Part shown: piece by piece, positions 10,455-48,106 of the stretch
Layout of the letters: every line of letters begins with the position of its first letter
Numbering within the stretch: position 1 is the first letter of the stretch
Notes under the pieces: generated by a model
The model's database searches: none
What the model was told of the DNA's origin: nothing
The model's input: only the letters and a program-made list of their open reading frames with translations
NCBI GenBank assembly: GCA_017524615.1
Contig: JAFXVJ010000050.1
Location: forward strand, 1 to 64,000
DNA: 64,000 nt
Direction of reading: 5' to 3'
Origin: Clostridia bacterium
GTDB taxonomy: Bacteria > Bacillota > Clostridia > Christensenellales > Aristaeellaceae
Program-made: the position numbers and the translations under genes

Positions 10455-10592
10455 GCCTTTATCAACTCCCTATGTATGATTCACCTGCATTCTATTACAA
10501 TCGGTTAAAAATGTCAATCATTTGGCAGTATTCAAATCGTTTTCTTGCAGTTTTTCCGCTGTCATTCCCCTGCCAAGGCAGAAAATTGCACC

Positions 10593-10829: not shown

Positions 10830-10862
10830 CCGAGAGAATGCGTCGGCCCGGTGCAAACAAAT

Positions 10863-10887
10863 GGGGAATCCGCGCCGCGGATTCCCC
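10863..10887 (-). terminator. Terminator of the split-barrel protein gene
   Basis: GGGGAATCCGC and GCGGATTCCCC form an 11-bp perfect stem with a three-base loop. On the minus strand it is followed by ATTTGTTTG. Confidence 0.75.
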
Positions 10888-10919
10888 GTTGATATGGGAT
10901 GATCTGATATCATTCGCCG

Positions 10920-11414
10920 TCAGCCCAGGGGCCGTACCAGCACGATTTCGTAGAACAGCTCCGTGCCCTGAGGAGCGATTTCCTTCAGCGCGGCGATGGT
11001 GTCGGCATCGGTGACCTTTTCCAGGTTCATGCGGGCGCCGGCGGTGGCGTAGGGCGTTTCACCGGTGGGGGCGGAGGCATACATGGCCACCAGCGCGCTG
11101 CCGTTGTCAATGTTGACGGTCGTCTGGTTGGGGCTCAGGCCCAATTGGAGATAATAGGTGTCGTTCAGTTTGACGCAGCTGTAGATGTAGAAGCCGATAT
11201 TGGGCGTGCCGTCGGGATTGACGGAAGCGATGACGAAGAAGCCGTTGTAGGCGTTAATGGCGTTCATCAGGTCGTCGCCGGTGAGGGCTGCGCTGCCATA
11301 GTAGTTATTGACCGACGCGCTGGTAAAGGCATCCGCCGGGGCTTCGGCGGTCTCCGCCAGTACGGGCAGCGACAGCAGGCACAGCACCAGAGTCAGCATC
11401 AGAAGTTTTTTCAT
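10920..11414 (-). CDS. Secreted pyridoxamine-5'-phosphate-oxidase-like split-barrel protein
   Basis: A 164-residue protein. Residues 1-20 form a signal peptide (MKKLLMLTLVLCLLSLPVLA). The rest fits the FMN-binding split-barrel (PNPOx-like) family: GFFVIASVNPDGTPNIGFY, then YLQLGLSPNQTTVNIDNGSALVAMY and a C-terminal strand FYEIVLVRP. Family members bind flavin or heme and are usually cytosolic, so the signal peptide is notable. It may work with the secreted flavoprotein upstream (speculation). The start at 11414 has GGAAGG nine bases upstream. It is separated from alaS by a terminator. Confidence 0.75.
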   Translation of the reverse strand: MKKLLMLTLVLCLLSLPVLAETAEAPADAFTSASVNNYYGSAALTGDDLMNAINAYNGFFVIASVNPDGTPNIGFYIYSCVKLNDTYYLQLGLSPNQTTVNIDNGSALVAMYASAPTGETPYATAGARMNLEKVTDADTIAALKEIAPQGTELFYEIVLVRPLG

Positions 11415-11586
11415 GACAGAATCCTTCCTTTCCTGTTTTTTGTATGGCAAAAGGTTTGCGCGCGATGTTTTATGCATCCCTTTTCCTTAAAAAAATTGTA
11501 CCGCGCGCGTCCGAAAAAGTCAAGACGGAAAAATACGAAGCGGCGGGGCCGCGGCGCTGCGCCGGAAAGAAATGAAAGACATGAAA

Positions 11587-11623
11587 GACGCGCGGGCGGG
11601 GATGGCATCCCCCGCCCACGCGT
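11587..11623 (-). terminator. Terminator of alaS
   Basis: GCGGGCGGGG pairs with CCCCCGCCCACGC around ATGGCAT. On the minus strand GTCTTTCATGTCTTTC follows. Confidence 0.6.
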
Positions 11624-11674
11624 TTCGCTCTGCTTTTCTATTCCGCGACAGAACCGTTCCATCTGCCGCGCGTA

Positions 11675-30242: not shown

Positions 30243-30818
30243 ATGAAAGCGATCGTAGGGCTGGGCAATCCGGGCGAAAAATATGAGCACAGCCGGCACA
30301 ACGCGGGCTTTGATGTGATCAGCATCATCGCCGCGAAACTGAACACGCCTATCAAAAAGCTGAAATTCCAGGCCACCATCGGGGAAACCTTCCTGAATGG
30401 GGAAAAGCTGGTGCTTGTGAAGCCCCAGACCTTCATGAACCTGAGCGGCCTGGCGGTATCGGACGCGCTTGCCTTCTATAAGATGGATCCCCGGGATATG
30501 CTGCTGCTGGTGGACGATATCGACCTGCCCTTCGGCCAGGTGCGCATCCGGCCCAAGGGCGGCGCGGGCACCCACAACGGCCTGCGCAGCATCGTGGAAT
30601 GCACCGGCAGCGAGGATTTCCCCCGCATCCGGCTGGGCATGGGCAATCCACCCAAGGAATGGAACCTGGCCGATTGGGTGCTGGGCAAATTCCAGACGGA
30701 GGAAGAAAGAAAAACCATGTTTGACGCGTATATGCTGGCCGCGGACGCGGCGCTGTGCTGGGCGGAGCACGGGATCGACCAGGCGATGAACCGCTACAAC
30801 AAACGCCATGCTGAATAA
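30243..30818 (+). CDS. pth: Peptidyl-tRNA hydrolase
   Basis: A 191-residue protein with the Pth pattern: [21 protein letters not shown] (catalytic His in SRHNAG), [40 protein letters not shown] and [11 protein letters not shown]. It releases tRNA from peptidyl-tRNA that drops off the ribosome. ATG 30243 follows AAAGGAG. The last 11 bases overlap the start of mfd, so the two are translationally coupled. pth-mfd is a very common pair in Bacillota. Confidence 0.96.
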
Positions 30819-33800: not shown

Positions 33801-34439
33801 ACCGCGTTCGGCTCCGGCTTCCGCATCGCCATGCGGGATCTGGAGATCCGGGGCGCGGGCAATATTTTCGGGCCGGAGCAGTCCGGCCAGGTGGCGGCGG
33901 TAGGCTACGATATGTACTGCCGCCTGATCGAGGAAGCCGTGCGGGAGGCCCGGGGCGCTCAGGGCGAAGGAGTTCCCACCCAGGTGGAGACCCGCGTGGA
34001 GCTGAAGGTGAATGCCTATCTGCCCGCCGAATACGTCCGGGGCGAAGCCCAGCGCATGGAGGTGTACAAGCGCATCTCCCTCATCAAGGAGCAGGAAAGC
34101 CGCCAGGACGTGATCGAGGAACTGATCGATCGCTTTGGGGATATTCCCGATCCCGTGATGCACCTGATTGATATTGCCCATCTCAGGGGCGTATGCGGCA
34201 GAATGGGCATCAGCCGGGTGAATTATCAGAGCAACGCCCTCATTTTCCGTCTGCTGCCCGGCGCGTCTCCCGACCCGGAAAAACTGTACGCTGCCCTGGC
34301 CCAGACGGACAAGCGCCTGCTTTTGGCTGCTTCCCGAGAGCCCGCCATTTTGCTGCGGGATCAAAAGCTGCCCCTGGAAGAGCTGCTTCGTGCCGCCGTG
34401 CCCGTCATGGAACGGCTGGAAGCGGAATTCAACGGCTGA
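30808..34439 (+). pseudogene. mfd: Transcription-repair coupling factor Mfd, interrupted by a one-base frameshift
   Basis: Two frames together give a full Mfd of about 1,210 residues. Frame one (30808 to ~33763) has the UvrB-like N-terminal module, the polymerase-interacting domain ([17 protein letters not shown]), Walker A ([15 protein letters not shown]), [24 protein letters not shown] and the motif [14 protein letters not shown]. At KMLS it runs into KRPSSVS and stops at 33903. A missing base between TTTCT and AAACGG (33762/33763) restores [21 protein letters not shown], which continues in the other frame to 34439 with [14 protein letters not shown] and the C-terminal TRCF domain. No slippery heptamer is present. 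It is either a real mutation or a sequencing/assembly error; the lack of other damage favours error or a very recent event. Confidence 0.9.
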
Positions 34440-35032: not shown

Positions 35033-35408
35033 TTATGATTCCTCCGTTTCCGGCTGCTCCATGCCCGCCCGCAGCATCTCAATGGCGCGTTTTTCCATGC
35101 GGGAAACGTAACTGCGGCTGATCCCAAGCACCTCCGCCACCTCATGCTGGGCGTGAACGGCGCCGTCCAGCAGGCCGTAGCGCATTTCGATCACCAGCCG
35201 CTCCTTCTTGGGCAGGCCTTTCACCAGCTTTCGCACCCGCCCCAGGGTCACACGCCGCACGGCCTCATCCTCTACGTGACCCGGTTCCGTGCCCAGGATA
35301 TCCAGGAAACTCAGCTCGTTGCCTTCCCCATCCGTGCCGATGGGATCCGACAGGCTCACGTCCCCCTTCCGCTTCCGGGATGCCCGCAGCAGCATCAGGA
35401 TTTCATTT
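35033..35408 (-). CDS. sigK: SigK sporulation sigma factor, C-terminal half (gene split by an intervening element)
   Basis: Read from the junction: Asn-Glu-Ile-Leu-Met-Leu-Leu-Arg, then KRKGDVSLSDPIGTDGEGNELSFLDILG (end of region 2 and region 3), LPKKERLVIEMRYGL and the region 4 helix-turn-helix (HEVAEVLGISRSYVSRMEKRAIEML). This matches the C-terminal half of Bacillus SigK and related mother-cell sigma factors; region 2 and the true start are missing. The N-terminal half is on the same strand 12.4 kb away (47776-48106). Joining at the shared AAATG gives a 233-residue SigK. Without excision this half has no proper start and is not expected to act. Confidence 0.95.
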
Positions 35409-37211
35409 GCTATCCTCGCCCCAAGGCGCCGCAGGGGTTGTCAGGGCGTCTGACCCCTCGTTTTCGCCGTAAACCACGTCCAGATAGGGCTCCAAATCGC
35501 CGTTTTCGTCCTCTTCCGCGGGGTTTTCCATCCACTTACGCAACCCTTCGGGATATTGGATTTCATCATCTCCCGCCCCGAAGAGGATCACATGGGCGTT
35601 TTCCCCATCCCAGATCACCCGGCGGATCACTGTTTTGAGGGCGGCCCGCTGCTGCTCAATGGACATATCCGCAAGCCCGTCCTTGAACGCCGCCAGCATG
35701 TCCCGCAGCAGATCGAATTCGCTGTCCGTCAATTCCTGCCGGTTCAGCAGGCTCGCCAGTTCCTGGATTCGTTGATCCAGGGCTTTGCTTTCCCGGTTCA
35801 GTTCGTCCAGACGCTTTGCCACCAGTTCTTTGGTGTCTCCGGCCGCCATCCCCGCCAGCGCGTCCACCAGGCCGCTGATTTTTTTGTCGGTTTCGGCCTT
35901 TTCCTGCTGCAAGGCGGCTTTCTGCTTTTCATATTCGACCCTGTCGCCGGTGAAAAAGCCCCGGCTGCGGGACAGCTGGGCCATGAATTCCCCCGCGTTC
36001 TCGTCGATGTGCCGGATGCGGTCCACGATCATGGCGTCCAGGATGTTGCCGTTCACGTTTTTGTTGTTGCACAGCGCCTTCTGGCTGCGCTCCTTGAGCT
36101 TGCAGACGTAGGTATAGACGGGCTTGCCCTCCGGAGTCAGGCGCTTGGTGAGTTTGGGGTACATCCGGTTGCCGCACTTGCAGAACAGGAAACCGGTCAA
36201 AAGCGCCTCGTTGCTCCGGGGGCGGCGGTAAGCCTTGGATTTGTTCTGCTCCAGCGCCTCCTGCGCCCGCACCCACGTTTTTCCCGGGATCAGCCCGGGA
36301 TGCTGCCCCACCGCCACGATCCAATCGCTCACCGGCAGGAACACCGTGGCCCGGCCCTTTTCCTGGTCGGTGCGGTTGTAGGCCATCACGCCCCGCGCCC
36401 CGTCAAAATCCGCTTCCTCCGCGAACACGTCTGCGCCGTGGGCGGTGAAATACCGGTACATGTCCCCGTCTGCAATGGCGTAAACGGGATTGAGTAAGAT
36501 TCCCTTGATGGAAAAGCGGGTGTGGTACTTGCCGTTCTTGCTGACGATGCGCCGCTGCATCAGTTCCGCTTCCGTTTTCGTCAGGGAGTTGGTTTCGCCG
36601 AACAGCTGATAGATCAGCTTCACCGTCTCCGCCTCCTCCGGGATCGGCTTCAGCCGGCAGGCCTTTTTCTTTTTCCCGTCCACGGTGACGGTCTGCACGC
36701 TTTCGGAAGCGTAGCCCGTGGGCGTGACGCCCCCCAGCCACCGGCCCGTCTTCGCCAGTTCCCGCATGTTGTCCCGGATGCGCTCGGCGATGGTTTCCCG
36801 CTCCAACTGGGAAAACACCGATGCAATATACATCATGGCCCGGCCCATGGGCTGGCTGGTGTCGAACCGCTCCCGGATGGAAACGAAATCCACCTTCAGC
36901 CGCCCCAGCTCCTCGATCAGCCCCGCAAAATCGCTGATGTTGCGGCTGATCCGGTCCAGCCGGTACACGATCACCGCGCTGTGCTTCTTATTCTTCACCG
37001 CCTTCATCATTTCCTTGAAGGCCGGCCGGTTCAGGTTGCCGCCGGAAAACCCCTCGTCCTCATACACCACGGCTTTTTCCGCCGCGTCCTCCCCATCGTT
37101 CATCCGAATGTACGCCCGGCACAGCTCGATCTGGTTCCCGATGCTCTCTCCTTTGCCGGTGAATCTGGATTTCCGGGAATATATGGCGACGGTCTGCTCG
37201 TTTCCTTTCAC
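35403..37211 (-). CDS. Large serine recombinase of the sigK element (SpoIVCA-like)
   Basis: About 602 residues. The N-terminal resolvase domain has the catalytic serine in IYSRKSRFTGKGESIGNQIE and conserved arginines in VIYRLDRISRN and SQLERETIAERIRDNM. A Recombinase domain follows (GGVTPTGYAS...), then a zinc ribbon (LFCKCGNRMYP...YVCKLKERSQKALC), a long coiled coil and a C-terminal tail. I place the start at GTG 37211, nine bases after GGGGAA; an in-frame ATG at 37274 has no ribosome-binding site. The stop codon overlaps the att core, so excision would remove it. Position and family point to the enzyme that excises the element; it probably needs mother-cell expression. Confidence 0.93.
   Translation of the reverse strand: MKGNEQTVAIYSRKSRFTGKGESIGNQIELCRAYIRMNDGEDAAEKAVVYEDEGFSGGNLNRPAFKEMMKAVKNKKHSAVIVYRLDRISRNISDFAGLIEELGRLKVDFVSIRERFDTSQPMGRAMMYIASVFSQLERETIAERIRDNMRELAKTGRWLGGVTPTGYASESVQTVTVDGKKKKACRLKPIPEEAETVKLIYQLFGETNSLTKTEAELMQRRIVSKNGKYHTRFSIKGILLNPVYAIADGDMYRYFTAHGADVFAEEADFDGARGVMAYNRTDQEKGRATVFLPVSDWIVAVGQHPGLIPGKTWVRAQEALEQNKSKAYRRPRSNEALLTGFLFCKCGNRMYPKLTKRLTPEGKPVYTYVCKLKERSQKALCNNKNVNGNILDAMIVDRIRHIDENAGEFMAQLSRSRGFFTGDRVEYEKQKAALQQEKAETDKKISGLVDALAGMAAGDTKELVAKRLDELNRESKALDQRIQELASLLNRQELTDSEFDLLRDMLAAFKDGLADMSIEQQRAALKTVIRRVIWDGENAHVILFGAGDDEIQYPEGLRKWMENPAEEDENGDLEPYLDVVYGENEGSDALTTPAAPWGEDSK
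35404..35408. other. Left attachment site of the sigK intervening element
   Basis: The plus-strand core CATTT (35404-35408) is flanked by sigK sequence on the left (CATCAGGATTT) and by element sequence on the right (GCTATCCTCGCC). The same core in the same orientation is at 47776-47780. The recombinase stop codon TGA lies within this core. Confidence 0.85.
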
Positions 37212-37290
37212 TTTTCTCACTTCCCCGATTGATGCCGTGCGATATACTTTCGACTTTATATTATCGAAGAGCATTTCATTTGATAACTTA

Positions 37291-37333
37291 AAAACCCGCT
37301 TTCATTACTGAAATCTCAGCATTTGAAAGCGGG
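37291..37333 (-). terminator. Terminator between the phosphoesterase remnant and the recombinase
   Basis: CCCGCTTTCA (37295-37304) pairs with TGAAAGCGGG (37324-37333). On the minus strand TTTTTAAG follows. It separates recombinase expression from upstream transcription. Confidence 0.75.
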
Positions 37334-37407
37334 ATATTGATCAAGGCTTTGCGATTTATTTCACTTGGCTGGTATTGAATGTCCGTAGAACGATGATCAT
37401 CGGCTTC

Positions 37408-37662
37408 TCACAGGCCCATCTTGGCCATGATCCCGTCCGCGGTAACGCCGGGATGGGTCACGTACAGCCGGGCGATCTGTTCCGCCCATTCCTTATCGTT
37501 GTTTCCCCGCACCGCCTGGACCGGCGCAATCTCCTCCAGCCGGTCCAGGATCTTCCGGCTGCTCACGTCCCCGCCGTGGAGAATGAAATCGCAGCCCGAA
37601 AGCCGGTTCAGCACTTCCGGGCGCAGCAGATCGTGGGTGTCGGATAAAACTGCGATTTTCAT
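37408..37662 (-). pseudogene. Truncated YfcE-type metallophosphoesterase
   Basis: An 84-residue reading with the first half of a calcineurin-like phosphoesterase: MKIAVLSDTHDLL (Asp-x-His), ILHGGDVSS (Gly-Gly-Asp) and VRGNND (Gly-Asn-Asn/His-Asp). The C-terminal half, with the remaining metal ligands (usually a Thr-His-Gly-His motif), is gone and replaced by an unrelated tail (THPGVTADGIMAKMGL). Full homologues have about 150-180 residues. It is therefore unlikely to be active. A ribosome-binding site (AGGGAAACG) remains. It lies in the sigK element next to the recombinase. Confidence 0.75.
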
Positions 37663-37709
37663 TGCTTCGTTTCCCTGCTCTTTTTCTTGGTTATTCTATG
37701 CGCGCCTGC

Positions 37710-38909
37710 TCATATCCGATATGCTGTCTGCCCGCAATGATTCAGCTTCGCCAGCCGCCCCACCGCACCATCCAGCGCGTGGGCCAGCTTCTTCGTCTGC
37801 CGCACGCCGCTTTCATACCACACGTTCCTGACCATGAGCGCGCCCGCTTTCCGATCTGCGGCGGCTTCGATCCTGCCAACAAATTGATCGCCATAAAGCA
37901 TGGGCAGCACATAGTATCCATACTTCCGCTTTTCCGCGGGGGTATAGATTTCCCAGGAATACTGATAACCCCAAACGGCCTCGATCAGCTTCCGATCCCA
38001 CAGCATGGGATCCAGCGGGGCCAAAAACTCGAGCCGCGGTTTCCTGTCGATATCGTCGGCGAGAACGGCCTCCATCAGCGGCTGATCCTCGCTCAGCAAA
38101 TACAAAGGAGATCGAATGCCCTCCGCCAGCACGGGCAGGATTTCTCCCGCGTGCAGCAGCGTGTCAAACGCCTGCTCGCGCTCATCGGTATTCATATCAA
38201 TGCCCAGCCAGGCGTCGGAGCGCCGATCCCACAAGAGCCCCACGGCGCCGATGCGCCGCTTCACGCGCCACTGCCGGAAGGAGGCCGCATCCGGGCAGGG
38301 ATTTGGCGCATTCAGAAGCGCCGGGCTGAAATACCGGTCCGCCAGATCGTAAAATTTCCGGGACCCGCTTTTGTGATGGATCAGCAGCACGCCGTCCGTA
38401 TACAACTGCTCCAGCACCGAACGGGCCGCCGGGGACTGGCCGTGCCAGTTGCCGCTCCAGTGCATGGAGGAATGCCAGAAAACCTTTCCTTCGATGGGCA
38501 AAGAATCGCTGCTGACAGGGCCGTTTTCCCGGATGTAAGCGATGGCCTGCTCTTCCAATTCCGGGATGTCCGGAAAGGACGCGCCGTGGGCTTTGCTCCT
38601 TTCCCGATAGCCGGCAAAGTACGGCCAATCCTCCCGGGGCCAGATGGACAATTCCTTGTCGCTGTAATCCACCAGCAGGCGATCCTGGTACAGAAGATCG
38701 GCCAGCATCTGCTTGGAAAAGCCCTTCACCCGGGACTGCAAGGTCAATTCCGCGTTTTTGCCGCATACGTCCACGGGATCATACTGAATGCAGCCCGCCT
38801 GACGGACATACCGGTACGCGCCGTCTTTTCCGGCAAAGCGATGCTTCCCCAGCAAACCCTGCTTGCTGAGCATGAACCGCCTGGCCTGTTCCTTCGTGAT
38901 CGTCATCAT
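37710..38909 (-). CDS. YcaQ/AlkX-like winged-helix DNA glycosylase family protein
   Basis: A 399-residue HTH_42 protein. It shows the family course: ARRFMLSKQGLLG, the catalytic Gln-x-Asp motif in GCIQYDPVDVCGKN, LWDRRSDAWLG, LEFLAPLDPMLWDRKLIEAVWGYQYSWEIYTPAEKRKYGYYVLPMLYGDQFVGRIE, a very conserved C-terminal block. YcaQ-type enzymes remove bulky alkyl or crosslinked bases; AlkZ relatives protect producers of DNA-damaging antibiotics. ATG 38909 (or the next ATG) lies behind AAGGG. The gene is inside the sigK element as intact cargo on the minus strand. Whether it protects the element or the host is unknown. Confidence 0.85.
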   Translation of the reverse strand: MMTITKEQARRFMLSKQGLLGKHRFAGKDGAYRYVRQAGCIQYDPVDVCGKNAELTLQSRVKGFSKQMLADLLYQDRLLVDYSDKELSIWPREDWPYFAGYRERSKAHGASFPDIPELEEQAIAYIRENGPVSSDSLPIEGKVFWHSSMHWSGNWHGQSPAARSVLEQLYTDGVLLIHHKSGSRKFYDLADRYFSPALLNAPNPCPDAASFRQWRVKRRIGAVGLLWDRRSDAWLGIDMNTDEREQAFDTLLHAGEILPVLAEGIRSPLYLLSEDQPLMEAVLADDIDRKPRLEFLAPLDPMLWDRKLIEAVWGYQYSWEIYTPAEKRKYGYYVLPMLYGDQFVGRIEAAADRKAGALMVRNVWYESGVRQTKKLAHALDGAVGRLAKLNHCGQTAYRI

Positions 38910-39136
38910 ATTTCCGTGCCCTTCGTTCCTTTCGCAGCTTTGCCCCGGATCAAGTATATCATATGAAAACCGAAATGAACAGAAGCTTGATCATTGATTA
39001 TTTATACCAATTATTTCATGATGGATGAAACGAAAAGCCAACGTCCATCCCCGAAGAATCAAAGGAAAGGAGAAATACGGTAAGGTGCCTTACAAACGCC
39101 AGGCAGCAGCCGTCAGCCGAATCGGCAGGCATATCT

Positions 39137-39391
39137 TTGCTGGCCGGCCACATACATTTCCGTAGGAAGGAGGCGCTGCCTATCCCCAAACCGAACCCCG
39201 TCAACATCATCGTTCACTATCCGAAAACCGCGGAAGGCCGGCGCATCCTGACCCGGCGCATGGCCGGCGTACATGCCGACTGGGTCTGCGATAAGCTGAA
39301 AAAAATGAACTGCCCCGCGGATCAGAAAGTGCAATTATTGAACGCCGTGGTGGATACGGCCAAAAGAAAAACGCGGGATCAGGCCCGGTAA
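39137..39391 (+). CDS. Small conserved element-type protein, unknown function
   Basis: Up to 84 residues. The plausible protein core is PVNIIVHYPKTAEGRR...RMAGVHADWVCDKLKKMNCPADQKVQLLNAVVDTAKRK. The helical pattern Ala-x-Val-His-Ala...Leu-x-x-Met-Asn-Cys-Pro...Gln-Lys-Val-x-Leu-Leu resembles short proteins I recall near recombinases in clostridial mobile elements, but I cannot name a family. The start is uncertain. A strong AGGAAGGAGG (39164-39173) sits before a possible ATC at 39183, while the only common start upstream is a TTG at 39137. The flanking 38910-39136 has nothing I can support. Confidence 0.5.
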   Translation: MLAGHIHFRRKEALPIPKPNPVNIIVHYPKTAEGRRILTRRMAGVHADWVCDKLKKMNCPADQKVQLLNAVVDTAKRKTRDQAR

Positions 39392-39728
39392 CGCCTGATC
39401 CCCGCCCGGCGGGCGTCGATGGACGATTGCAGGTTTTTTCGTATGTTGCTGGTGCTGATAAGCCTATTTGAACAGGCATATTCCGGTCCTCCTTTGTCCG
39501 GAATGCGATTGGATGCAGCGCGCTTCATCTGCGTGCTTTATACCAAAAGAGAGCATAAGGGACAATCTGTATTATTATTATAATTTATGCAAGTATATAT
39601 AAAGCAATTTTTCATATAAGTACTTTTCTATGAAATGCTGGCTCCGCCTGCCTTTCAGTCGCAATTCAGCGTGAGCAGAATTACGAGCAAAAGACCAGGA
39701 AAAAAACAATCCCCTTCGCGTTCCAATA

Positions 39729-39779
39729 TTGACAGGACCGGCGGGCGTAATATAATAAAGATGTTCGGACAACCCGAAC
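39729..39779 (+). promoter_or_regulatory. Strong promoter of the peptide-uptake operon, with an operator-like palindrome
   Basis: TTGACA (39729-39734), 16 bases, TATAAT (39751-39756). The palindrome GTTCGG-ACAAC-CCGAAC (39763-39779) overlaps the predicted start of transcription and could be an operator or the first stem of the leader. The stretch 39392-39728 upstream has a very AT-rich part near 39565-39640 and no gene I recognise. Confidence 0.85.
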
Positions 39780-39949
39780 GGAATAGAGGCGCGGCATGCA
39801 TCAGTACCGCAGGCTGTTCTGCCGGAGTGTAAGCCCAGGCGAAAGGGCTTGCCGCCGAAACGCGGCCCCCGTGGCGGGAGGGCGCGTTGGGACGACGGAA
39901 AAAGATCCCGCGTACTGTCATGCCCGGCCATGAAGCGCTATTCCCGGTT
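39777..39949 (+). ncRNA. Lysine-riboswitch-like aptamer
   Basis: The sequence follows the L-box layout. P1 is AACGGAATAG (39777-39786) with CTATTCCCGGTT (39938-39949). Just inside P1 is AGAGGCGCGGC, then ATCAGTACCGC, GGCGAAAGGG and TTGCCGCCGAA, the conserved core blocks of lysine riboswitches (compare AGAGGUGCG, UCAAGAGUA, GAAAGGGG, GUCGCCGAA in Bacillus lysC). A final hairpin TCATGCCCGGCCATGA precedes the P1 3' strand. A terminator follows at 39980. Lysine binding would be expected to shut off the operon. The identity was judged by eye, not by covariance search. Confidence 0.8.
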
Positions 39950-39979
39950 GTTTCTGCAGATTCAAGCGGAGAATGACGT

Positions 39980-40006
39980 AAAGCGATTCTTCGCTTTTCT
40001 TTTTTC
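39980..40006 (+). terminator. Riboswitch expression-platform terminator
   Basis: AAAGCGA (39980-39986) pairs with TCGCTTT (39991-39997), then TCTTTTTTC. It lies 30 bases after the aptamer and 28 before the GTG start. Confidence 0.8.
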
Positions 40007-40033
40007 TTCCGCATTTCTTCCAGGAGCGCGCAA

Positions 40034-40711
40034 GTGAGTGTAAAGATTGCCATTCCGATCCCGCCCCAGGACCGGTATCCCAACTATTTTTCGGCGCTGA
40101 GTGCCTTGGGGGCGGAAGGGATCAAGGCCTCGGCGGAGGCTGATCCTTCCGACTTCGACGGCCTGCTGCTCCCCGGCGGGGGCGATATATGCCCGGCCTA
40201 TTACCGCCAGGAAACGGCCGGGGCCGCGGACATGGATCCGGCCCTGGACGCGCTGCAGTTTGCGGTGGTCGACCGGTTTTTCAAGGCGGGGAAAATGATC
40301 TTCGGCATCTGCCGGGGGCATCAATTGCTGAACGTGTACTTTGGGGGCACCCTGATCCAGGATCTGCAAAACGGGAAAATGCACGACTGGGAGCAGGGCT
40401 TCTCCATGGACAAGGTCCACATGACGGAGGCCCTGCCCGGCTCCTGGATAGCGGGCATTTACGGCCTTCGCTTCCCCACCAACAGCGCCCATCACCAGGC
40501 CGTGGACCAGCTGGGCAAGGGCCTGACCGCGGACATGTATGCCCCAGACGGGATCATCGAGGCGGCGCATCATGAGAGCGGCCGGGTTTTCAGCGTGCAG
40601 TGGCACCCGGAAAGGATGTGCTTTGACCACCGGCGGGAGGACACCGTGGACGGAAGCAAAGTGATCCGTTGGTTTCTGGACAGGTGCCTGAGCGCAAAAT
40701 GCCCCGGATGA
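40034..40711 (+). CDS. Class I glutamine amidotransferase-like peptidase (gamma-glutamyl hydrolase, PuuD family)
   Basis: A 225-residue protein of the peptidase C26 / PuuD type. LLLPGGGDICPAYY forms the oxyanion region. The nucleophile elbow is FGICRGHQLLNVYFGGTLIQDL (Cys). The His/Glu pair lies in VFSVQWHPERM. NSAHHQAV is the family's substrate-side segment. Relatives cleave gamma-glutamyl amide or isopeptide bonds, for example gamma-glutamyl-GABA. Translation begins at GTG 40034 behind AGGAG. It is the first gene behind the lysine riboswitch and is followed by a peptide ABC transporter. Cleavage of imported gamma-glutamyl peptides, perhaps gamma-glutamyl-lysine, is a hypothesis from this context. 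Confidence 0.87.
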   Translation: MSVKIAIPIPPQDRYPNYFSALSALGAEGIKASAEADPSDFDGLLLPGGGDICPAYYRQETAGAADMDPALDALQFAVVDRFFKAGKMIFGICRGHQLLNVYFGGTLIQDLQNGKMHDWEQGFSMDKVHMTEALPGSWIAGIYGLRFPTNSAHHQAVDQLGKGLTADMYAPDGIIEAAHHESGRVFSVQWHPERMCFDHRREDTVDGSKVIRWFLDRCLSAKCPG

Positions 40712-40754
40712 AGCAGCGGGAGGGGCAGGCTCCCTTTCTTTCTCTTTGAATCCA

Positions 40755-40774
40755 CCATGGCGGGGCCGCCATGG
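40755..40774 (+). other. Perfect stem-loop in the operon leader of the binding protein
   Basis: CCATGGCGG (40755-40763) pairs with CCGCCATGG (40766-40774). No T-run follows. It is probably a processing or stability element that sets binding-protein mRNA apart from the peptidase mRNA. Confidence 0.5.
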
Positions 40775-40796
40775 AAAAATAGAAGGAGTGAAACGA

Positions 40797-42740
40797 ATGA
40801 AAAGGTTGATCCGCATGATGTCTCTGGCGCTGGCGCTGTGCCTGGCCCTGACTGGCGCGGCCGTGCCCGCTTTCGCTGAGGACGCTTCCGCGAAGGCCCA
40901 GGCGATCCTGGACGGCAAGGAATACGCCACCGTCTATAAGAGCTATTTCTCCACCTCCTATCCCTCCCTCAATTACTTCTGCACCTCCTATGCCACGGTG
41001 CGCGAGTTCGCCACCAACTGCGTGGACAGCCTGGTGGAGCCGGACATTTACGGCAATTACACCGGCGCCCTGGCGGAGAGCTGGGATGTGAACGACGATT
41101 ACACCGTGTGGACCTTCCATATCCGCAAGGGTCAGAAGTGGATCGACCATACCGGCGCCCAGACGGAATACGACCTGACCGCCCAGGACTTCGTGGACGG
41201 CATCCGCTACATCGGCGACCCCCAGAACGATGCCTATTCCCTGCGCGTGATCCGCAACCTGATCACCGGCCTGTATGATTACTACTGGGGCCTGGATGAC
41301 ATTGACTGCGGCGATGACACGGAAACCAACAGGGACGACCTGGTGGCCCGGTTCGATGAGATCGTGGGCGTGAAGGCCCTGGACGAATACACCGTCCAGT
41401 ATACCCTGGACAATAGCGCGCCCTATTTCCTCTCCCTGGTGGAAAGCAGCATGCTGCTCCTGCCCGTGGAATACGATTACGTGGTCGCCCAGGGCGATGA
41501 CTTCGCCGTGGACAACACCCACATGCTCTACTGCGGCCCCTATTACGTGTCCGCCTTCGAGCGCGACAAGAAGATCGTGCTCACCAAGAACCCCTATTAC
41601 TGGGATCTGGACAAAATCACTGTGGACACCATCGAATATCAGATGATCCCGGACGGCACCACTTCCCTTGAAATGTTCATCCGGGGCGAACTGGATTACA
41701 CCTCCGTGGAATCCGAAGCCTTCATGTCCCTCCAGGGGAGCGAATGGGAAAAGTACCTGATCCCCAACGAGTTCTCCTTCAGCACCAACTATCTGTGGCT
41801 GGACTTCCAGGGCGCGAATCCCGAGTTCAACACTTTCATCCAGAACGTGAACTTCCGCCGGGCCCTGCGCGCCGCTGTGGACCGGGAATCCCTGGCCTCC
41901 CTGCGGGAGCCCATGCAGCCCTCCCGCCTGGTGCGCAATACCGTGAACGCCGAGGGCGCGATCTTCAATTCCCAGGGCGTTGATTACACCCAGATCCCCC
42001 CGCTGGATGAAATCGCCAACGCGGATTACAGCGCCGATGAAAACGCCGCCCGGGCCTATATGGAGGCCGCTGTGGCAGAACTGTGCGATCCGGACGGCAC
42101 CATCAAGGGCGTGGAAGCGGGCACGGTGGATTATCTGCCCGTGATCAAGACCGATGTGGACGGCAAGCTGCCCGTCACCCTGATTTACGTGGGCACCAAC
42201 GATGAGAGCGAAATCATCCTGGCCCAGCTGTTTGAGGCCATGGTGGAGGAAGCCATCGGCACGGATTATATCGACGTGGTGCTGGCCTTTGACACCAGCG
42301 ACGATTTCTATGGCACCGTGGGCGGCAGCGTGAAGGGCCCGTTCAACTACGATATCTATTGGGATTCCCTGTCCACCGGCTACGCCGATCCCTCCGGCAT
42401 TCTGACCCGCATCACCTCCGACGGGGTAGAGAACGTGGGCTGCTACAGCGTGCCCGAATTTGACGCGCTGATCGAAAAGGCACTCAACGCCCCCACCTTC
42501 GACGAGCGGCTGCAATTCTTCGCCCAGGCGGAAGCGTACCTGCTGGACAACGCTTTCATGATCCCGGTGATTTCTTCCCTCCGCGGCTATCATATGACCT
42601 ATGACGTGCCCCATACCGCCCCCAGGGCGCTCTACGGCAGCGACCGCTACAAGGGCTTGAAGGTGGCCACGACGCCCATCACCCTGGAAGAATACCAGAT
42701 CCTGGACGCGGCCTGGGAAAGCCAGAGAAACGCGAAATAA
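40797..42740 (+). CDS. Oligopeptide ABC transporter substrate-binding protein (family 5)
   Basis: A 647-residue secreted SBP_bac_5 protein. The signal peptide is MKRLIRMMSLALALCLALTG, with cleavage after AFA. There is no lipobox cysteine, which is unusual for a binding protein in a single-membrane organism. Hallmarks are ALAESWDVNDDYTVWTFHIRKGQKW, TAQDFVDGIRY, PYFLSLVE, NPYYWD and, later, NVNFRRALRAAVDRESL. Family 5 proteins bind peptides or nickel; here peptides are likely. ATG 40797 follows AAGGAG. A hairpin downstream probably reduces read-through into the permease genes, giving excess binding protein. Confidence 0.9.
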   Translation: MKRLIRMMSLALALCLALTGAAVPAFAEDASAKAQAILDGKEYATVYKSYFSTSYPSLNYFCTSYATVREFATNCVDSLVEPDIYGNYTGALAESWDVNDDYTVWTFHIRKGQKWIDHTGAQTEYDLTAQDFVDGIRYIGDPQNDAYSLRVIRNLITGLYDYYWGLDDIDCGDDTETNRDDLVARFDEIVGVKALDEYTVQYTLDNSAPYFLSLVESSMLLLPVEYDYVVAQGDDFAVDNTHMLYCGPYYVSAFERDKKIVLTKNPYYWDLDKITVDTIEYQMIPDGTTSLEMFIRGELDYTSVESEAFMSLQGSEWEKYLIPNEFSFSTNYLWLDFQGANPEFNTFIQNVNFRRALRAAVDRESLASLREPMQPSRLVRNTVNAEGAIFNSQGVDYTQIPPLDEIANADYSADENAARAYMEAAVAELCDPDGTIKGVEAGTVDYLPVIKTDVDGKLPVTLIYVGTNDESEIILAQLFEAMVEEAIGTDYIDVVLAFDTSDDFYGTVGGSVKGPFNYDIYWDSLSTGYADPSGILTRITSDGVENVGCYSVPEFDALIEKALNAPTFDERLQFFAQAEAYLLDNAFMIPVISSLRGYHMTYDVPHTAPRALYGSDRYKGLKVATTPITLEEYQILDAAWESQRNAK

Positions 42741-42751
42741 CCAAACGGCGC

Positions 42752-42784
42752 AGGCTCCGGCTGTTTCAGCGGCCGGAGCCTTTC
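42752..42784 (+). terminator. Partial terminator between binding protein and permeases
   Basis: AGGCTCCGGC pairs with GCCGGAGCCT around TGTTTCAGCG, then TTCTCTTCT. The permease genes have no promoter of their own that I can see, so the hairpin is probably leaky. Confidence 0.65.
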
Positions 42785-42838
42785 TCTTCTGTTTGCCCGG
42801 GATAAGCGCCAATGGCGGAAAGGGGCCTGGCAAGGAAC

Positions 42839-43777
42839 ATGGCAAAGTATATTCTGCGGCGCCTGCTGCGCTCCGCGGTCACGCTGATCATCGTGTTCAC
42901 GGCGGTGTTCATGCTGCTTCGGTTTATGCCGCTCAACGGTTATTTCCCCCAGGAAATGATCAAGGAAACGGACGAGGCCACGCGGATGGCGTACCTGAGG
43001 AATTTAGGGCTGCTGGACCATCCATTCGTGCAGCTGTGGCGGTTCGTGCGAAGCCTTTTGCACGGGGATCTGGGGCGCAGCATCACGGTATATCCCAAGG
43101 TGCCCATCAGCACCCTGATGGCGGAAAAAATCCCCACCACCGCGTTCCTGGGGTTCTTCAGCATGCTGCTTGGCATCGTGGCGGGCCTTTCCATGGGCAT
43201 GATGATGGTGCGGCGGAAAAACAAGCTGGGAGACAGCCTGGGCAACGGGTATATCCTGCTGGTCCGGGCGGTGCCCAGCCTGATTTATCTGTTTTTCCTC
43301 CAGATCTGGGTGTCCCGCTGGCTGAATCTGCCCCTGGTTTACGACAAGGACATTCCCAAATCCTGGATCCTGCCCATCGTCTGCCTGTCCCTGTCCAGCG
43401 TGGCCTGGTACGCCTTGTGGATACGCCGGTTCATGGTGGACGAGGAAAACCAGGATTACGTGAAGTTCGCCTTCGTCAAGGGCCTGTCCCGGAAGGCCGT
43501 GCTGCGAAAGCATATTTTCCGCAACGCCGTGATCCCCATCACGGCTTACCTGCCCGCCGACCTGCTCAACATCGTGGCGGGCTCCCTGATCATTGAAACG
43601 CTCTACGCCATTCCCGGCACCGGCGGCCTGCTCACCACCGCCATTAAACGGCAGGACAACAACCTGGTGCAGGTGCTGGTGCTCATGTACGCCGCGTTGT
43701 CCATCCTGGGGGTGTTCCTGGGGGATCTGCTGCTGGCGTTCGTGGACCCGCGGATCAAGCTGACGGAGGAAAAATGA
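42839..43777 (+). CDS. Oligopeptide ABC transporter permease (OppB-like)
   Basis: A 312-residue protein with six membrane helices and the DppB/OppB pattern: MAKYILRRLLRSAVTLIIVF at the N-terminus, DLGRSITVYPKVPI, then the coupling EAA-like loop DYVKFAFVKGLSRKAVLRKHIFRNA and IIETLYAIPGTGGLL. I prefer the ATG at 42839 (MAKYILRR is the usual start); an in-frame ATG at 42812 lacks a ribosome-binding site. The stop overlaps the oppC-like start (ATGATG), showing coupling. It is the first of two permeases of the transporter in the sigK element. Confidence 0.9.
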   Translation: MAKYILRRLLRSAVTLIIVFTAVFMLLRFMPLNGYFPQEMIKETDEATRMAYLRNLGLLDHPFVQLWRFVRSLLHGDLGRSITVYPKVPISTLMAEKIPTTAFLGFFSMLLGIVAGLSMGMMMVRRKNKLGDSLGNGYILLVRAVPSLIYLFFLQIWVSRWLNLPLVYDKDIPKSWILPIVCLSLSSVAWYALWIRRFMVDEENQDYVKFAFVKGLSRKAVLRKHIFRNAVIPITAYLPADLLNIVAGSLIIETLYAIPGTGGLLTTAIKRQDNNLVQVLVLMYAALSILGVFLGDLLLAFVDPRIKLTEEK

Positions 43778-44721
43778 TGCAGAGCACCATTAAAACCATT
43801 GCCCGGGCCCACGACCCGGCCCTGTTTACCCGGGCGGATTTCGACCAGGCGGAAAGCGAAAGGATCGGCGTGTCCAATTATTCCTACTGGCGCTCCACCC
43901 TGCGTACCTTTTTCCGCTCCAAGCTGGTGATCCTGCTGGTGGCGCTGATGGCGGCCATCCTGCTCATGAGCTTTCTGTATCCCATGATTTCCAGGATCGA
44001 CCCCACCAAGGTGTCCACCAGGTCCCGCAACTGGAACCTGCGCCCCTCCTGGGAGCATCCCTTCGGCACGGATACCCTGGGCAGGGACATTTTCGCCCGG
44101 GCCTGGTACGGCTGCCGCAATTCCTTCCTGCTGGCCTTCTGCATCGCCCTGTCGGACGTGGGCATCGGCATGATCGCCGGCGCCGTGTGGGGCTATAACC
44201 GGAAGCTGGACCCCTTCATGATCGAATTGTACAACATCATGACCAACATCCCCTCCACCGTTTATCTGGTGCTGCTTGCCTATATCATGAACACCAGCTA
44301 CCTGACCCTGTTCATTTCCATGGCTTCCCGCGGCTGGATCGTGGAGGCGCGGTTTTTCCGCAACCGCATCCTGTCCATCCGGGACGCGGAATACAACATC
44401 GCTTCCCGGTGCCTGGGCACGCCCATGCTCCGCATCGCCACCAGGAACATCATTCCCCAGATCATCAGCCTGATCATCATGGAAGCGGCCCTGTGCATCC
44501 CCTATTCCATCGGCTCCGAGGTATTCCTGGGATTCGTGGGGGTGGGCATGCCCGTGGACGCCATTACCCTGGGCAATATGGTCAACCAGGGCCGGGCGTC
44601 CTTTACCCTGCATCCCTATCAGATGCTGCTGCCCACGGCGGTGCTGTGCCTGATCACCGTGGCCTTTTACATCATCGGCAACCGCTTCGCCGACGCGTCC
44701 GACCCCAGGAATCATCTGTAA
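43774..44721 (+). CDS. Oligopeptide ABC transporter permease (OppC-like)
   Basis: A 315-residue protein. The N-terminal OppC tail (SYWRSTLRTFFRSKLVILLVALMAAILLMSF, split here into words: helix 1) is followed by the OppC signature WEHPFGTDTLGRDIFARAWYG and the coupling loop AEYNIASRCLGTPMLRIATRNIIPQI. The C-terminal part includes EVFLGFVGVGMPVDAITLGNMVNQG. It pairs with the OppB-like subunit to form the channel. It overlaps the oppB-like gene by 4 bases and lies 15 bases before the ATPase gene. Confidence 0.9.
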   Translation: MMQSTIKTIARAHDPALFTRADFDQAESERIGVSNYSYWRSTLRTFFRSKLVILLVALMAAILLMSFLYPMISRIDPTKVSTRSRNWNLRPSWEHPFGTDTLGRDIFARAWYGCRNSFLLAFCIALSDVGIGMIAGAVWGYNRKLDPFMIELYNIMTNIPSTVYLVLLAYIMNTSYLTLFISMASRGWIVEARFFRNRILSIRDAEYNIASRCLGTPMLRIATRNIIPQIISLIIMEAALCIPYSIGSEVFLGFVGVGMPVDAITLGNMVNQGRASFTLHPYQMLLPTAVLCLITVAFYIIGNRFADASDPRNHL

Positions 44722-44736
44722 ACGGAGGATGGAAGA

Positions 44737-46731
44737 ATGAACGAGCATAAAGGCCCTCTGCTTCTGTCCGCCAAGGACGTGGTGATCAAATTCAACCTCC
44801 GGGGCCAGGAGCTGACCGCCATCCGCGGGGCGTCCCTGGACGTGTACCAGGGGGAAACCGTGGCCATCGTGGGAGAATCCGGGTCCGGGAAATCCGTGTT
44901 CACCAAGTCCTTCATCGGCATGCTGGACCAGAACGGCCGGGTGGAGAGCGGCTCCCTGCTTTTCCACGGGGAGGACATGACGAAATACAGCGCCGAGGCT
45001 CAATGGCTGAAGGTGCGGGGCAAAAAAATCGCCATGGTGTTTCAGGACCCCATGACCAGCCTGAACCCGGTGCGGGTGATCGGTGAGCAGATCGCCGAGG
45101 TGATCATGTGGCATTTCCATAAATCCCATGACGAGGCGAAAAAAGAAACCGTGGAGCTGCTGCGAAAGGTGGGCATCGAGGACCCGGAGCAGCGCTACCG
45201 CCAGTATCCGGGAGAGTTTTCCGGCGGCATGCGGCAGCGGGCGGTCATCGCCTGCGCCATCGCCTGCCGGCCGGAGATCCTGATCTGCGACGAGCCCACC
45301 ACCGCCCTGGACGTGACCGTGCAGGCCCAGGTGCTGAATCTGATCAAGGATCTCCAGCGGGAAATGAAAATGAGCGTGGTCTTTATCACCCACGATCTGG
45401 GCGTGGTGGCCAACGTGGCGGACTGGGTGGCGGTGATGTACGCGGGGAAGATCATCGAGTATGGGGAAGCGGGGGAGATTTTTCACCAGCCGGAGCACCC
45501 CTATACCAAAGCCCTCCTTCGCTCCCTGCCCCAATTGGGGGTGAAGGGCCACGACCTGTACGCCATTCAGGGCACCCCGCCCAGCCTGTTCAAGGAAATC
45601 CGGGGCGACGCCTTCGCCCCCCGGAACATGGACGCCATGAAAATCGATTTTGAGGAGGAGCCCCCGGCCTTTTCCGTGTCTCCCACCCATTGGGCGAAAA
45701 CCTGGCTGCTGGCCCCGGAGGCGGAAGCGTACCGGCAGGATCTTGCCCGCCGGGACGCGGAAGCGTCCTCCGCCCAGACCCCCTCCGCGCCTTTTGATTA
45801 CGGGAAGGCGGAGCCCCTTCTGTCTGTGAAGAACCTTTCCGTGCATTTTAAGCTGGGCTCTTCCCGGGTCAAGGCGGTGGACGGCGTTTCTTTCGATATT
45901 TATAAAGGGGAGACCCTGTCCCTGGTGGGGGAATCCGGCTCCGGAAAAACCACCATCGGCAGGGCCGTGATGAGCATTTACAGCGGCAATGTGGAGGGCG
46001 GCATCTATTTCAAGGGCCGGAAGATCAATCAGAAGCTGAGCAAAAAAGACCGGGGAAAGCTGCGCATGGAAATGCAGATGATCTTCCAGGACCCCATGGC
46101 CTCCCTCAACGACCGGGCCAAGGTGGATTACATCATTTCCGAGGGCCTGTACAATTTCCATTTGTTTGAGAACGAAGGGGACCGCCTGGCCAAGGTGGAA
46201 AAAATGCTCCGGGAAGTGGGGCTGACCAGCGATTTCATGACCCGCTTCCCCCATGAGTTTTCCGGCGGGCAGCGGCAGCGCATCGGCATCGCCCGCAGCC
46301 TGATCATGAATCCCGATTTCGTGGTGGCGGACGAGCCGATCTCCGCCCTGGATGTATCCATCCGCGCCCAGGTGATCAATCTGCTCAACCGGCTCAAGCA
46401 GGAAAGGGGCCTCACCTATCTGTTCATCGCCCACGATCTGTCCGCCGTCCGCTTTATTTCGGACCGGATCGCCGTCATTTACCGGGGGCGGCTGGTGGAA
46501 TTGGCGGCCTGCGAGGAGCTGTTTTCCCGGCCCCTTCATCCCTATACCAAGGCCCTCCTTTCCGCCGCGCCCTATCCGGACCCCGACGTGGAAAAAAACA
46601 AGGTGATCCATATCTACCGTCCCGAAGCCGGGGATGCGGCTACCGCCCGGGAATGGATCGAAGCCTTTCCCTTTCATTTCGTGCTGGCCACCCGGGAAGA
46701 AGCGGAGGAGTACCGGCGTGAAAACAACTGA
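44737..46731 (+). CDS. Fused oligopeptide ABC transporter ATPase (OppD-OppF)
   Basis: A 664-residue protein with two ABC domains in one chain. Domain 1 (about 8-330) has Walker A GESGSGKSVFTKS, signature FSGGMRQRAV and Walker B LICDEPTTALD. Domain 2 (about 355-655) has GESGSGKTTIGRA, FSGGQRQRIGIARS and VVADEPISALD. Each is followed by the OppD/F C-terminal extension (HPYTKALL occurs twice). In most systems OppD and OppF are separate genes; fusions are known but less common. The start follows GGAGG at 44724-44728. It energises the permeases above. Confidence 0.92.
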   Translation: MNEHKGPLLLSAKDVVIKFNLRGQELTAIRGASLDVYQGETVAIVGESGSGKSVFTKSFIGMLDQNGRVESGSLLFHGEDMTKYSAEAQWLKVRGKKIAMVFQDPMTSLNPVRVIGEQIAEVIMWHFHKSHDEAKKETVELLRKVGIEDPEQRYRQYPGEFSGGMRQRAVIACAIACRPEILICDEPTTALDVTVQAQVLNLIKDLQREMKMSVVFITHDLGVVANVADWVAVMYAGKIIEYGEAGEIFHQPEHPYTKALLRSLPQLGVKGHDLYAIQGTPPSLFKEIRGDAFAPRNMDAMKIDFEEEPPAFSVSPTHWAKTWLLAPEAEAYRQDLARRDAEASSAQTPSAPFDYGKAEPLLSVKNLSVHFKLGSSRVKAVDGVSFDIYKGETLSLVGESGSGKTTIGRAVMSIYSGNVEGGIYFKGRKINQKLSKKDRGKLRMEMQMIFQDPMASLNDRAKVDYIISEGLYNFHLFENEGDRLAKVEKMLREVGLTSDFMTRFPHEFSGGQRQRIGIARSLIMNPDFVVADEPISALDVSIRAQVINLLNRLKQERGLTYLFIAHDLSAVRFISDRIAVIYRGRLVELAACEELFSRPLHPYTKALLSAAPYPDPDVEKNKVIHIYRPEAGDAATAREWIEAFPFHFVLATREEAEEYRRENN

Positions 46732-47155
46732 TCTGTGGAAAAACAAAAAATGGCGGCTGCTGATTTTTCACCGGGCCATGGTGCTTTTTTCCCTGGCCCT
46801 GGTTTTCAGCGCTCTGGCCGCGGGGCTGTATCAAAGCCGGGTGTATTTCTCCTTCGGCGCCTGCGCCGCCGGGGCGCTGCTTTGGGCCAAGGCCTGGCTG
46901 GATTTTTGCCGCTGGCGGGACGGAAAGCCCCTGGAACGGACCCGGGAAAAAACGCCCTATATGCTCCGGGCGCGGAAGAAGAAAACCGTTCATAAGCCGG
47001 CGTTTCTCATGAACGCCTCGGATTTTGATGACGACCTGACCCCCTGGACCGCCCTGGGCGAGGAAACGCTCCCCCGGCGCGCCCAGGAGCTTTCCTCCGT
47101 CCTCGCCTGCGTCTTTGCCGGGGCGGCGGCCTTGCTTGCGTCCCTGATTCCGTGA
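46718..47155 (+). CDS. Two-helix membrane protein at the end of the peptide operon
   Basis: A 145-residue protein starting with GTG 46718, seven bases after GGAGGAG and overlapping the end of the ATPase gene. Helix 1 is AMVLFSLALVFSALAAGLYQS; helix 2 is FGACAAGALLWAKAWLDF. A basic loop (RTREKTPYMLRARKKKTVHK) and an acidic segment follow, and a third helix ends the protein (VLACVFAGAAALLASLIP). I do not recognise the family. Tight coupling to the ATPase suggests a role in or with the transporter. Confidence 0.7.
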   Translation: MKTTDLWKNKKWRLLIFHRAMVLFSLALVFSALAAGLYQSRVYFSFGACAAGALLWAKAWLDFCRWRDGKPLERTREKTPYMLRARKKKTVHKPAFLMNASDFDDDLTPWTALGEETLPRRAQELSSVLACVFAGAAALLASLIP

Positions 47156-47189
47156 TTCTTTGCGCACAAAGATATAAAAGCCTTCCACA

Positions 47190-47690
47190 TCTGAACAGCT
47201 TTTCCATATAGCCCTGCTTCATCGTCACAGTTCTTGCCACTTCGATCGAATCATCCCGAACGCGGCAAAAATCCTTGTAAGCTTTGAAATTGATAGAATA
47301 ATACCCCGTAAACAGGCCGCGTTGATACAGCAGAATCCCGGAAAGCGGGAACTCTTTTTTTTTTCGGGGATGGCATCGGCAAATTCATTTACGATCATAA
47401 CTGCCGGAGGCTTCCCATACGCCGTCCCATACGGCGTTCATGTCCCGCAGCGTTTCGGGCGCATAACGAATCTTATAGGTCATTTTCTTTCATTCTTCTT
47501 CTTTTTCCTCCATGGCATATACTATGGATGCATCCTTCATGCAACGGTTTTCCGACAAATTCATCGAAAGTTTTAGGGGCTTATTCCAAGCCCTTCCATC
47601 GTTTATCTTCGCAGCGGTCACCCGGAAGGAGAGGATAGAAAGGGGCTTAAGCCTCACGCAAGTTCCCTCTGAGCGGCACATGATATACAT
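47190..47690 (-). pseudogene. Remnant of a ParE/RelE-type toxin with its antitoxin
   Basis: On the minus strand MTYKIRYAPETLRDMNAVWD starts at 47483 and stops at 47385. The same protein continues in another frame: FADAIPEKKKEFPLSGI, LFTGYYSINFKAYKDFCRVRDD and ARTVTMKQGYMEKLF, the usual ParE ending. A 12-base T-run (47354 region) sits near the shift. Upstream, a short reading ending NLSENRCMKDASIVYAMEEKEEE stops just before the toxin ATG and may be the antitoxin end. Both look decayed. They lie between the peptide operon and the right att site; the remaining bases of 47156-47775 hold nothing else I can support. Confidence 0.6.
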
Positions 47691-47775
47691 TTTGTCGGAA
47701 TACCGGGCGCAAACGTGCCAGATATTGGAAGAAAAGCGGCTTTGATCCGCGTATGACGCGCCGGCGATGGGATAG

Positions 47776-47780
47776 CATTT
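47776..47780. other. Right attachment site of the sigK intervening element
   Basis: The plus-strand core CATTT has element sequence on the left (CGATGGGATAG) and sigK sequence on the right (TCAATGCACCGGG). GGATAG here and CTATCC inside the left site form the two arms of the attP palindrome. Confidence 0.85.
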
Positions 47781-48106
47781 TCAATGCACCGGGCGGCATA
47801 GGAGGAAAGCTGCGTGCCGCTGTCCGGCTTGAAGGTGTTCACGGCCTTCACCAGCCCCAGGGATCCTACCGATACCAAATCGTCGGCTGTAAAGCCGGGC
47901 ACCGTGTATTTCCTCGCGATATGGGACACCAGGCGCAGGTTGTGCTCGATCAGTTTTCGCCGGGCGCTGTCGTCGCCGGCCTGCATGGCGGCGATGGTTT
48001 TTTGTTCCTCCTCCCGGGTGAGCGGACGGGGAAATGAACCGCGGCCCGACAGCAGCCCGAAGAAAAACAGTGCGTCCTTGAAAAGCCAATACAAAAACGA
48101 CAGCAT
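47776..48106 (-). CDS. sigK: SigK sporulation sigma factor, N-terminal half (gene split by an intervening element)
   Basis: Residues 1-110 of SigK. A hydrophobic leader (MLSFLYWLFKDALFFFGLLS) precedes SFPRPLTREEEQ, IEHNLRLVSHIARKYT (region 2.1), DDLVSVGSLGLVKAVNTF (region 2.2) and LSSYAARCIEN (region 2.4). It then breaks at the att core and reads into element DNA (AIPSPARHT). The leader resembles the pro-sequence of Bacillus pro-SigK, which SpoIVFB removes; C. difficile SigK lacks it. ATG 48106 follows GGAGGTGATTTCAG. The C-terminal half is at 35033-35408. Confidence 0.95.

Follow-up and report, generated by a model that had tools for sequence, protein, structure and literature searches.

Precedents for such a system are reported from two species. 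In Clostridioides difficile, the recombinase CD1231 and CD1234, a 72-aa directionality factor expressed under sigma-E and SpoIIID, are the precedent for excision of a skin element (PMC5025042). In Bacillus subtilis, Skr (64 aa) is the precedent for a directionality factor (PMC6957869). Among non-phage elements, island IV of Bacillus cereus biovar anthracis carries restriction-modification genes (PMC10745906, PMC5595907). Here, we analysed a stretch of 64,000 nucleotides (hereafter the window) of contig JAFXVJ010000050.1 from a Clostridia bacterium of the Aristaeellaceae (GCA_017524615.1; genome G000, 2.55 Mb in 59 contigs, 82% complete), in which sigK is interrupted by a 12.4-kb insert. We consider this insert, with high confidence, to be a skin-type sigK-intervening element, probably the domesticated descendant of a mobile element. 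The evidence was sequence throughout; we infer excision, its timing and directionality from homology and motifs, as we do restriction of excision to the mother cell and a mobile ancestry. Comparisons were made with 29 genomes of the genus and a wider family set of 300 genomes.

The split sigK gene and its junctions

The sigK coding sequence is split into two co-oriented halves that rejoin in frame, a site-specific recombinase is encoded at the element edge, and matching cores occur with attP/attB-type sites, as in skin-type elements. An initial annotation, made from the letters alone, had proposed such a 12.4-kb split with a 5-bp direct repeat at each junction. Its coordinates were confirmed (insert of 12,372 bp; Table 1) and both repeat copies, the core AAATG, were located at 47776–47780 and 35404–35408. 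The element lies between codons 111 and 112 (CIEN and EILM), with the core at sigK nt 327–331. Joining the halves at AAATG gave a 702-bp in-frame sequence encoding the 233 residues foreseen by the annotation. This product scored 273.4 bits against NF004471, the NCBIfam SigK subfamily (cut-off 252 bits), and 277.6 bits against TIGR02846, under a cut-off (298.65 bits) that 0/29 genus genomes reached. The large serine recombinase that the annotation noted at the inner edge (LSR1) is an open 623-aa frame whose TGA stop lies within the core. The GC content of the element (0.583) was close to that of its flanks (0.596).

Uninterrupted sigK occurred in 17/29 genus genomes, and in one of the genus genomes, G017, the halves were contiguous beside the same downstream neighbour as in the window (gene 30808–34439, which by our reading is mfd), which together exclude a chance origin of the split. 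This neighbour in G017 was the only synteny matched; none was found upstream between the window and intact relatives. Four genomes carried sigK split at this first site (G000, G009, G011 and G015), and three had a break at another, second site (G009, G005 and G014). G007 and G012 possessed a second large serine recombinase (LSR2, described below) and the sigK tail, with no other SigK part detected. The contig of G018 stopped exactly at the core and that of G025 before it, and G008 and G019 yielded no SigK. G028 had an intact sigK and, on another contig (L047:9316-10100, G028:C10), one further copy that bears an in-frame TAA.

The two findings that the annotation had named as arguing against it were not encountered. 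The assembly of G000 (82% complete) yielded no second SigK, and the aligned parts of the halves contained no stop in the window, G009, G011 or G015. That an assembly or binning artefact united unrelated pieces is highly improbable: although the assembly is a draft, the same structure recurred in other assemblies, including named Gemmiger, Faecalibacterium and Holdemania strains, and G017 shares the downstream neighbour beside sigK.

The genomic background agreed with the sporulating host implied by the annotation. The Spo0A domain was found in 29/29 genus genomes, SpoIVA in 24/29 (22 above cut-off) and SpoIIID in 27/29 (none above cut-off; G016 at just 4e-4). In G000, Spo0A, SpoIVA and SigE (369 versus 339 bits) exceeded their cut-offs, SpoIIID did not (99.6 versus 111.5 bits), and a SpoIIGA-like gene upstream of SigE scored 51 bits, under its cut-off. 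G000 also encodes an adjacent M23/M50 gene pair without an NCBIfam name, which we take to resemble spoIVFA-spoIVFB. The pro-sequence-like N terminus of SigK points to a joint action of excision and proteolysis in this organism. In our proposed mechanism, LSR1 would have integrated the element at codons 111/112, crossing over at AA; excision in the mother cell would rejoin sigK to give pro-sigma-K; and the forespore would retain the element, which would thereby be inherited.

The LSR1 family and its attachment site

LSR1 relatives, the best 80 of 413 found, were mostly from Clostridia. The recombinase gene ran directly into the same sigK codons in 71/80 of them, and six more had a sigK part nearby; this tally applies to the 80 alone. 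In the full attachment-site set (n = 84 loci: these 80, the window, L040, L042 and L044, with L054 and L097 repeating G009 and G015 records) the direct run was seen in 75 loci, typically as ...GAGGATAGCA, then AA, then (T/C)GA, and the element half-site GAGGATAGCA recurred across the family. Loci differed in the codon past the recombinase end (AAT or AAC), so the crossover point is probably the AA dinucleotide within AAATG. The reverse insertion in L086, where TT replaces AA, fits an orientation set by this dinucleotide. In L091, L098 and L101, the sigK C half lay ~0.4–4.6 kb downstream of the recombinase; L102 and L120 showed the N half only, L096 stopped at the core, and no sigK accompanied the LSR1 relatives in L116 and L127. 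The relative in L116 retained the conserved GAGGATAGCAAA end and may lie at a secondary target.

The circle junction reconstructed for the window contained eight consecutive complementary pairs around AA. Across 14 elements these junctions were palindromic, with 12–17 of 20 positions pairing (L056, 15/20; G009 element 1, 14/20; chance, 5/20), which fits what is expected of attP.

Insertions at this first site were found in records titled Lachnospiraceae, Oscillospiraceae, Christensenellaceae, Gemmiger, Faecalibacterium and Holdemania. Faecalibacterium and Gemmiger are regarded as non-sporulating genera. Their genomes represented by L115, L117, L057, L112, L128, L130 and L077 contained the two sigK halves as well as a full-length match resembling that of SigE; in five of these genomes (G300–G304) the halves lay on one contig in the same orientation, 15–41 kb apart.

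A small conserved protein and the element's contents

By tblastx, the stretch most often common to the loci besides the recombinase was 39167–39370, and a metallophosphatase fragment and ABC ATPases also matched some loci. This short stretch encodes a small protein of ~60–80 residues (39182–39391), whose gene was present in 17/17 elements visible in full, sigK N half through recombinase (window, G009, L042, L055, L056, L067, L068, L075, L085, L094, L098, L099, L102, L104, L105, L120 and L126). Elements of just 3.6–3.7 kb (L085, L099) kept it, and it was also seen in L043, whose contig ends inside it. Overall, it occurred in 33/84 recombinase loci, the remainder of which do not show the attL end, and in 2/10 short N-half loci (L172–L181, ~1.5 kb past the N half), the others ending too early to tell. 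The protein had no match in Pfam, PHROGs or NCBIfam.

The motif ATA-N15..17-[CA]A[AT]ANNNT lay upstream of the small gene at similar distances in 26/33 loci, compared with 1.4 expected (200 dinucleotide shuffles, maximum 4; shuffling does not remove kinship among loci). In the window, its -10 is CATACATT. A SpoIIID-box-like RGACAR was upstream in 19/33 loci versus 4.8 expected. The search used the general consensus forms for sigma-E and SpoIIID. The pattern matches CD1234 of C. difficile (PMC5025042), and the small protein is a candidate, and the likely one, for an excision (directionality) factor that would be turned on in the mother cell. The helix-turn-helix (HTH) protein beside attL was dropped as a candidate for this role: it is truncated in the window and only partially matched in L056 and L068, where the small protein persists.

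The remaining cargo of the element is given in Table 1. No phage structural or packaging genes were recognised among the element's named genes, and a prophage assignment was rejected on that basis. A PHROGs scan of five window proteins (opp proteins and small ORFs lay outside it) matched LSR1 and the amidotransferase only, and region 46634–47155 had no match. The metallophosphatase fragment (37408–37662) resembles, at 58–62%, part of the flank upstream of sigK in both G009 and G024.

Table 1 Features of the split sigK locus, in window positions
Feature	Position	Strand	Evidence or remark
sigK C half	35033..35408	-	begins at core; TIGR02846 134 bits, profile 111-222
LSR1, large serine recombinase, 623 aa, open frame	35403..37274	-	Pfam Resolvase, Recombinase, Zn_ribbon_recom; last codons and TGA stop in attachment site
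sigK-intervening element	35409..47780	.	12,372 bp including one core copy; uninterrupted sigK in 17/29 genus genomes
Metallophosphatase fragment, 84 aa	37408..37662	-	domain match
AlkZ-like DNA glycosylase, cargo	37710..38909	-	PF06224, 172 bits
Sigma-E-type promoter motif ATATCTTTGCTGGCCGGCCACATACATT	39131..39158	+	upstream of small gene
Small conserved protein, candidate recombination directionality factor	39182..39391	+	in 17/17 whole elements; alignment of homologues
Peptidase C26 / glutamine amidotransferase-type protein, cargo	40034..40711	+	domain match
Oligopeptide ABC transporter genes oppA, B, C and fused D-F ATPase, cargo	40746..46731	+	domain matches
HTH_3 protein remnant, 28 residues	47607..47690	-	full protein of ~172-177 aa beside attL in G009, G011, G015
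sigK N half	47776..48106	-	~residues 1-111, pro-sequence-like N terminus; ends at core; TIGR02846 132 bits, profile 7-115

Relaxases were encoded in the G015 and G009 elements (L042, PF03389, 175 bits), the L039 relaxase being 95.8% identical to that of L042 (MobQ, 172 bits versus a cut-off of 200). With these two relaxases as queries (E 1e-6), putative matches occurred in 13/84 recombinase loci, most at 23–50% identity, and the G009 element further carries NACHT, DNA methylase, ResIII and AAA/Cap4-like genes. With a relaxase in two relatives, the family looks partly mobilizable. With the L042 and L039 relaxases as queries (E 1e-6), no match was found in the window element, and its assignment as an integrative mobilizable element (IME) was rejected, although L042 and L039 do encode relaxases. 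The window element has retained LSR1 and the small gene and has lost most of the HTH gene, contents that point to a probable domesticated descendant of a mobile element.

Among phage records, LSR1 had 820 matches, every one below 60% identity (top-ranked, 38.9%). IMG/VR yielded five loci with LSR1 relatives, the best at 44%, in a scan that requires exact 7-residue patterns and is thus not exhaustive. On the IMG/VR contig L182, classed as viral, this 44% relative (9971–12057) adjoins an oppositely oriented SigK N half whose last residues are CIEN, beside what we read as phage-like replication genes. A related recombinase thus serves at least one contig classed as viral, possibly a phage at the same site.

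These relatives bear on a rather unlikely alternative, that the insert is a plain mobile element with sigK merely its target, leaving upon transfer or stress and restoring sigK incidentally. The relaxases of L042 and L039, the sigK-borne recombinase of L182, and the defence and metabolic cargo are in its favour; against it stand the sigma-E-type motif before the small gene in 26/33 loci and the use of the same sigK codons in genomes of many families.

Several observations weigh against a functional skin-type element. An intact sigK could sit in the unassembled part of G000. The HTH gene is truncated, and if its product is needed for excision the element is stuck. No named directionality factor resembles the small protein, whose start codon is also ambiguous: the ORF as listed begins (39137) inside the promoter match. 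The sigma-E-type motif is absent from 7/33 upstream regions, several of the 33 are close relatives and hence not independent, and the SpoIIID-like box is absent upstream of the window's small gene. Lastly, the median pN/pS of the window C half against intact relatives was 0.41, compared with 0.29 for intact pairs, which may hint at relaxation, though this is a weak test. As a discriminator between split and intact sigK, pN/pS failed: the stop-bearing G028 copy gave 0.24 and 0.33, like intact ones.

It is nevertheless unlikely that the insertion is degenerate, with an element that can no longer leave, a lost sigK and a lineage unable to complete sporulation. The truncated HTH gene, the missing relaxase match and the slightly raised pN/pS would fit such a state. 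Set against these, the frames of both sigK halves, of LSR1 and of the small gene are open, the sigma-E-type motif is in place, Spo0A, SpoIVA, SigE and a SpoIIID-like gene are retained, and the exact cores and attP-like palindrome are kept. The skin-type excisable element proposed by the annotation is therefore supported as the best reading, with excision here deduced from sequence.

Doubly split sigK and comparison with described systems

LSR2 (534 aa, 21–23% identity to LSR1) adjoins the sigK tail, with ...SYV before and SRMEK after the junction. It was found in 15/300 family genomes and the tail followed in 12/15 loci; G014 lacked the tail, and G218 and G225 were apparently inverted, judging by the flanking DNA. 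In L145 and L146, LSR2 elements were apparently reversed, with AC replacing GT at the crossover. LSR2 orientation may depend on the crossover dinucleotide, as with AA/TT at site 1. LSR1 relatives, counted at E 1e-100, were present in 12/300 family genomes, and both recombinases occurred together in five (G009, G213, G225, G238 and G248).

The doubly split arrangement was clearest in G009, where three sigK pieces lie in one orientation on a single contig (C61; from 35052, 60963 and 77502), separated by elements of 25,585 and 16,240 bp. Its sister G024 has an uninterrupted sigK and the same order on both sides, at 86–95% nucleotide identity with flank length differences. The two sigK segments aligned between them overlap by exactly the 5-bp core, and the rejoined G009 SigK was identical to that of G024 at 219/229 positions. 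sigK was also doubly split in L124 (Oscillospiraceae RGIG4660; one contig with the middle part, LSR2 and the tail, another with the N half) and in G213 and G248 (an identical LSR1 stretch in both, LSR2 and tail on other contigs). The LSR1 relative (43%) of G225 showed no sigK beside it. Across L081, L083, L154 and L155, 4.7 kb were identical among G213, G248 (both species representatives) and SIG355, which may stem from a recent transfer or from binning shared between them. G009 also has a third large serine recombinase (L053:10394-11854, 31% to LSR2), located within a few kb on the upstream side of sigK, and the site-2 element of G005 (L051:11600-18527) includes genes for Fic, ParB and glycosyl hydrolase family 92 proteins.

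On balance, we lean towards a broader reading, in which sigK of several gut Clostridia exists in three pieces, cut at two fixed sites by serine-recombinase elements unrelated to each other and needing two mother-cell excisions, and in which the site-1 family is old, widespread and dedicated to sigK, with its own sigma-E-driven directionality factor. The existence of the phage relative L182 lowers its odds. In the open-access literature searched, no title or abstract opening listed mentioned a doubly interrupted sigK or a split sigK in Faecalibacterium. If true, this reading would mean that sporulation timing is set by a mobile-element lineage that also carries transport, surface and defence genes. 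The doubly split gene offers a test of whether selection favours splitting as a means of timing or simply puts up with it, the small-protein family is a testable candidate family of directionality factors, and interrupted sigK could mislead gene-based prediction of sporulating gut bacteria.

Compared with described systems, the window element shares a split sigK, an element-encoded serine recombinase and a short core with skinBs of B. subtilis (SpoIVCA, Skr), for which developmental excision and a small directionality factor are reported, both of which are proposed here (PMC6957869, PMC10745906). skinBs is 48 kb of mostly phage genes (PMC10745906), whereas the window element is 12.4 kb without a recognised phage structural gene. 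An identity with the B. subtilis skin site, suggested by AATGA in both, was dropped because B. cereus inserts with this AATGA core lie at sigK nt 423 (PMC10745906). The core here occupies nt 327–331, different from the positions on record for the B. cereus group. As in skinCd of C. difficile, the recombinase gene lies just upstream of the sigK 3' part, and the small factor under sigma-E there has its counterpart in the sigma-E-type motif here; sigma-K of C. difficile lacks a pro-sequence (PMC5025042), in contrast to the pro-like N terminus and M50 protease candidate of G000. Island IV (in sigK) and gin (in gerE) are likewise non-phage intervening elements, but island IV lies at sigK nt 195, and gin occupies another gene and encodes three serine recombinases (PMC10745906, PMC5595907). 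The elements at C. tetani site A, in Alicyclobacillus MMB025 and of C. perfringens phiS63 are also in sigK, but are phages or prophages (PMC5553647, PMC13141910). IMEs combine a relaxase with an integrase, as do L042 and the G009 element, whereas the window element has no relaxase match and its target is a sporulation gene. This skin-type system stands apart by an insertion site that differs from the B. cereus group ones, a candidate regulator and, in relatives, a doubly split sigK.

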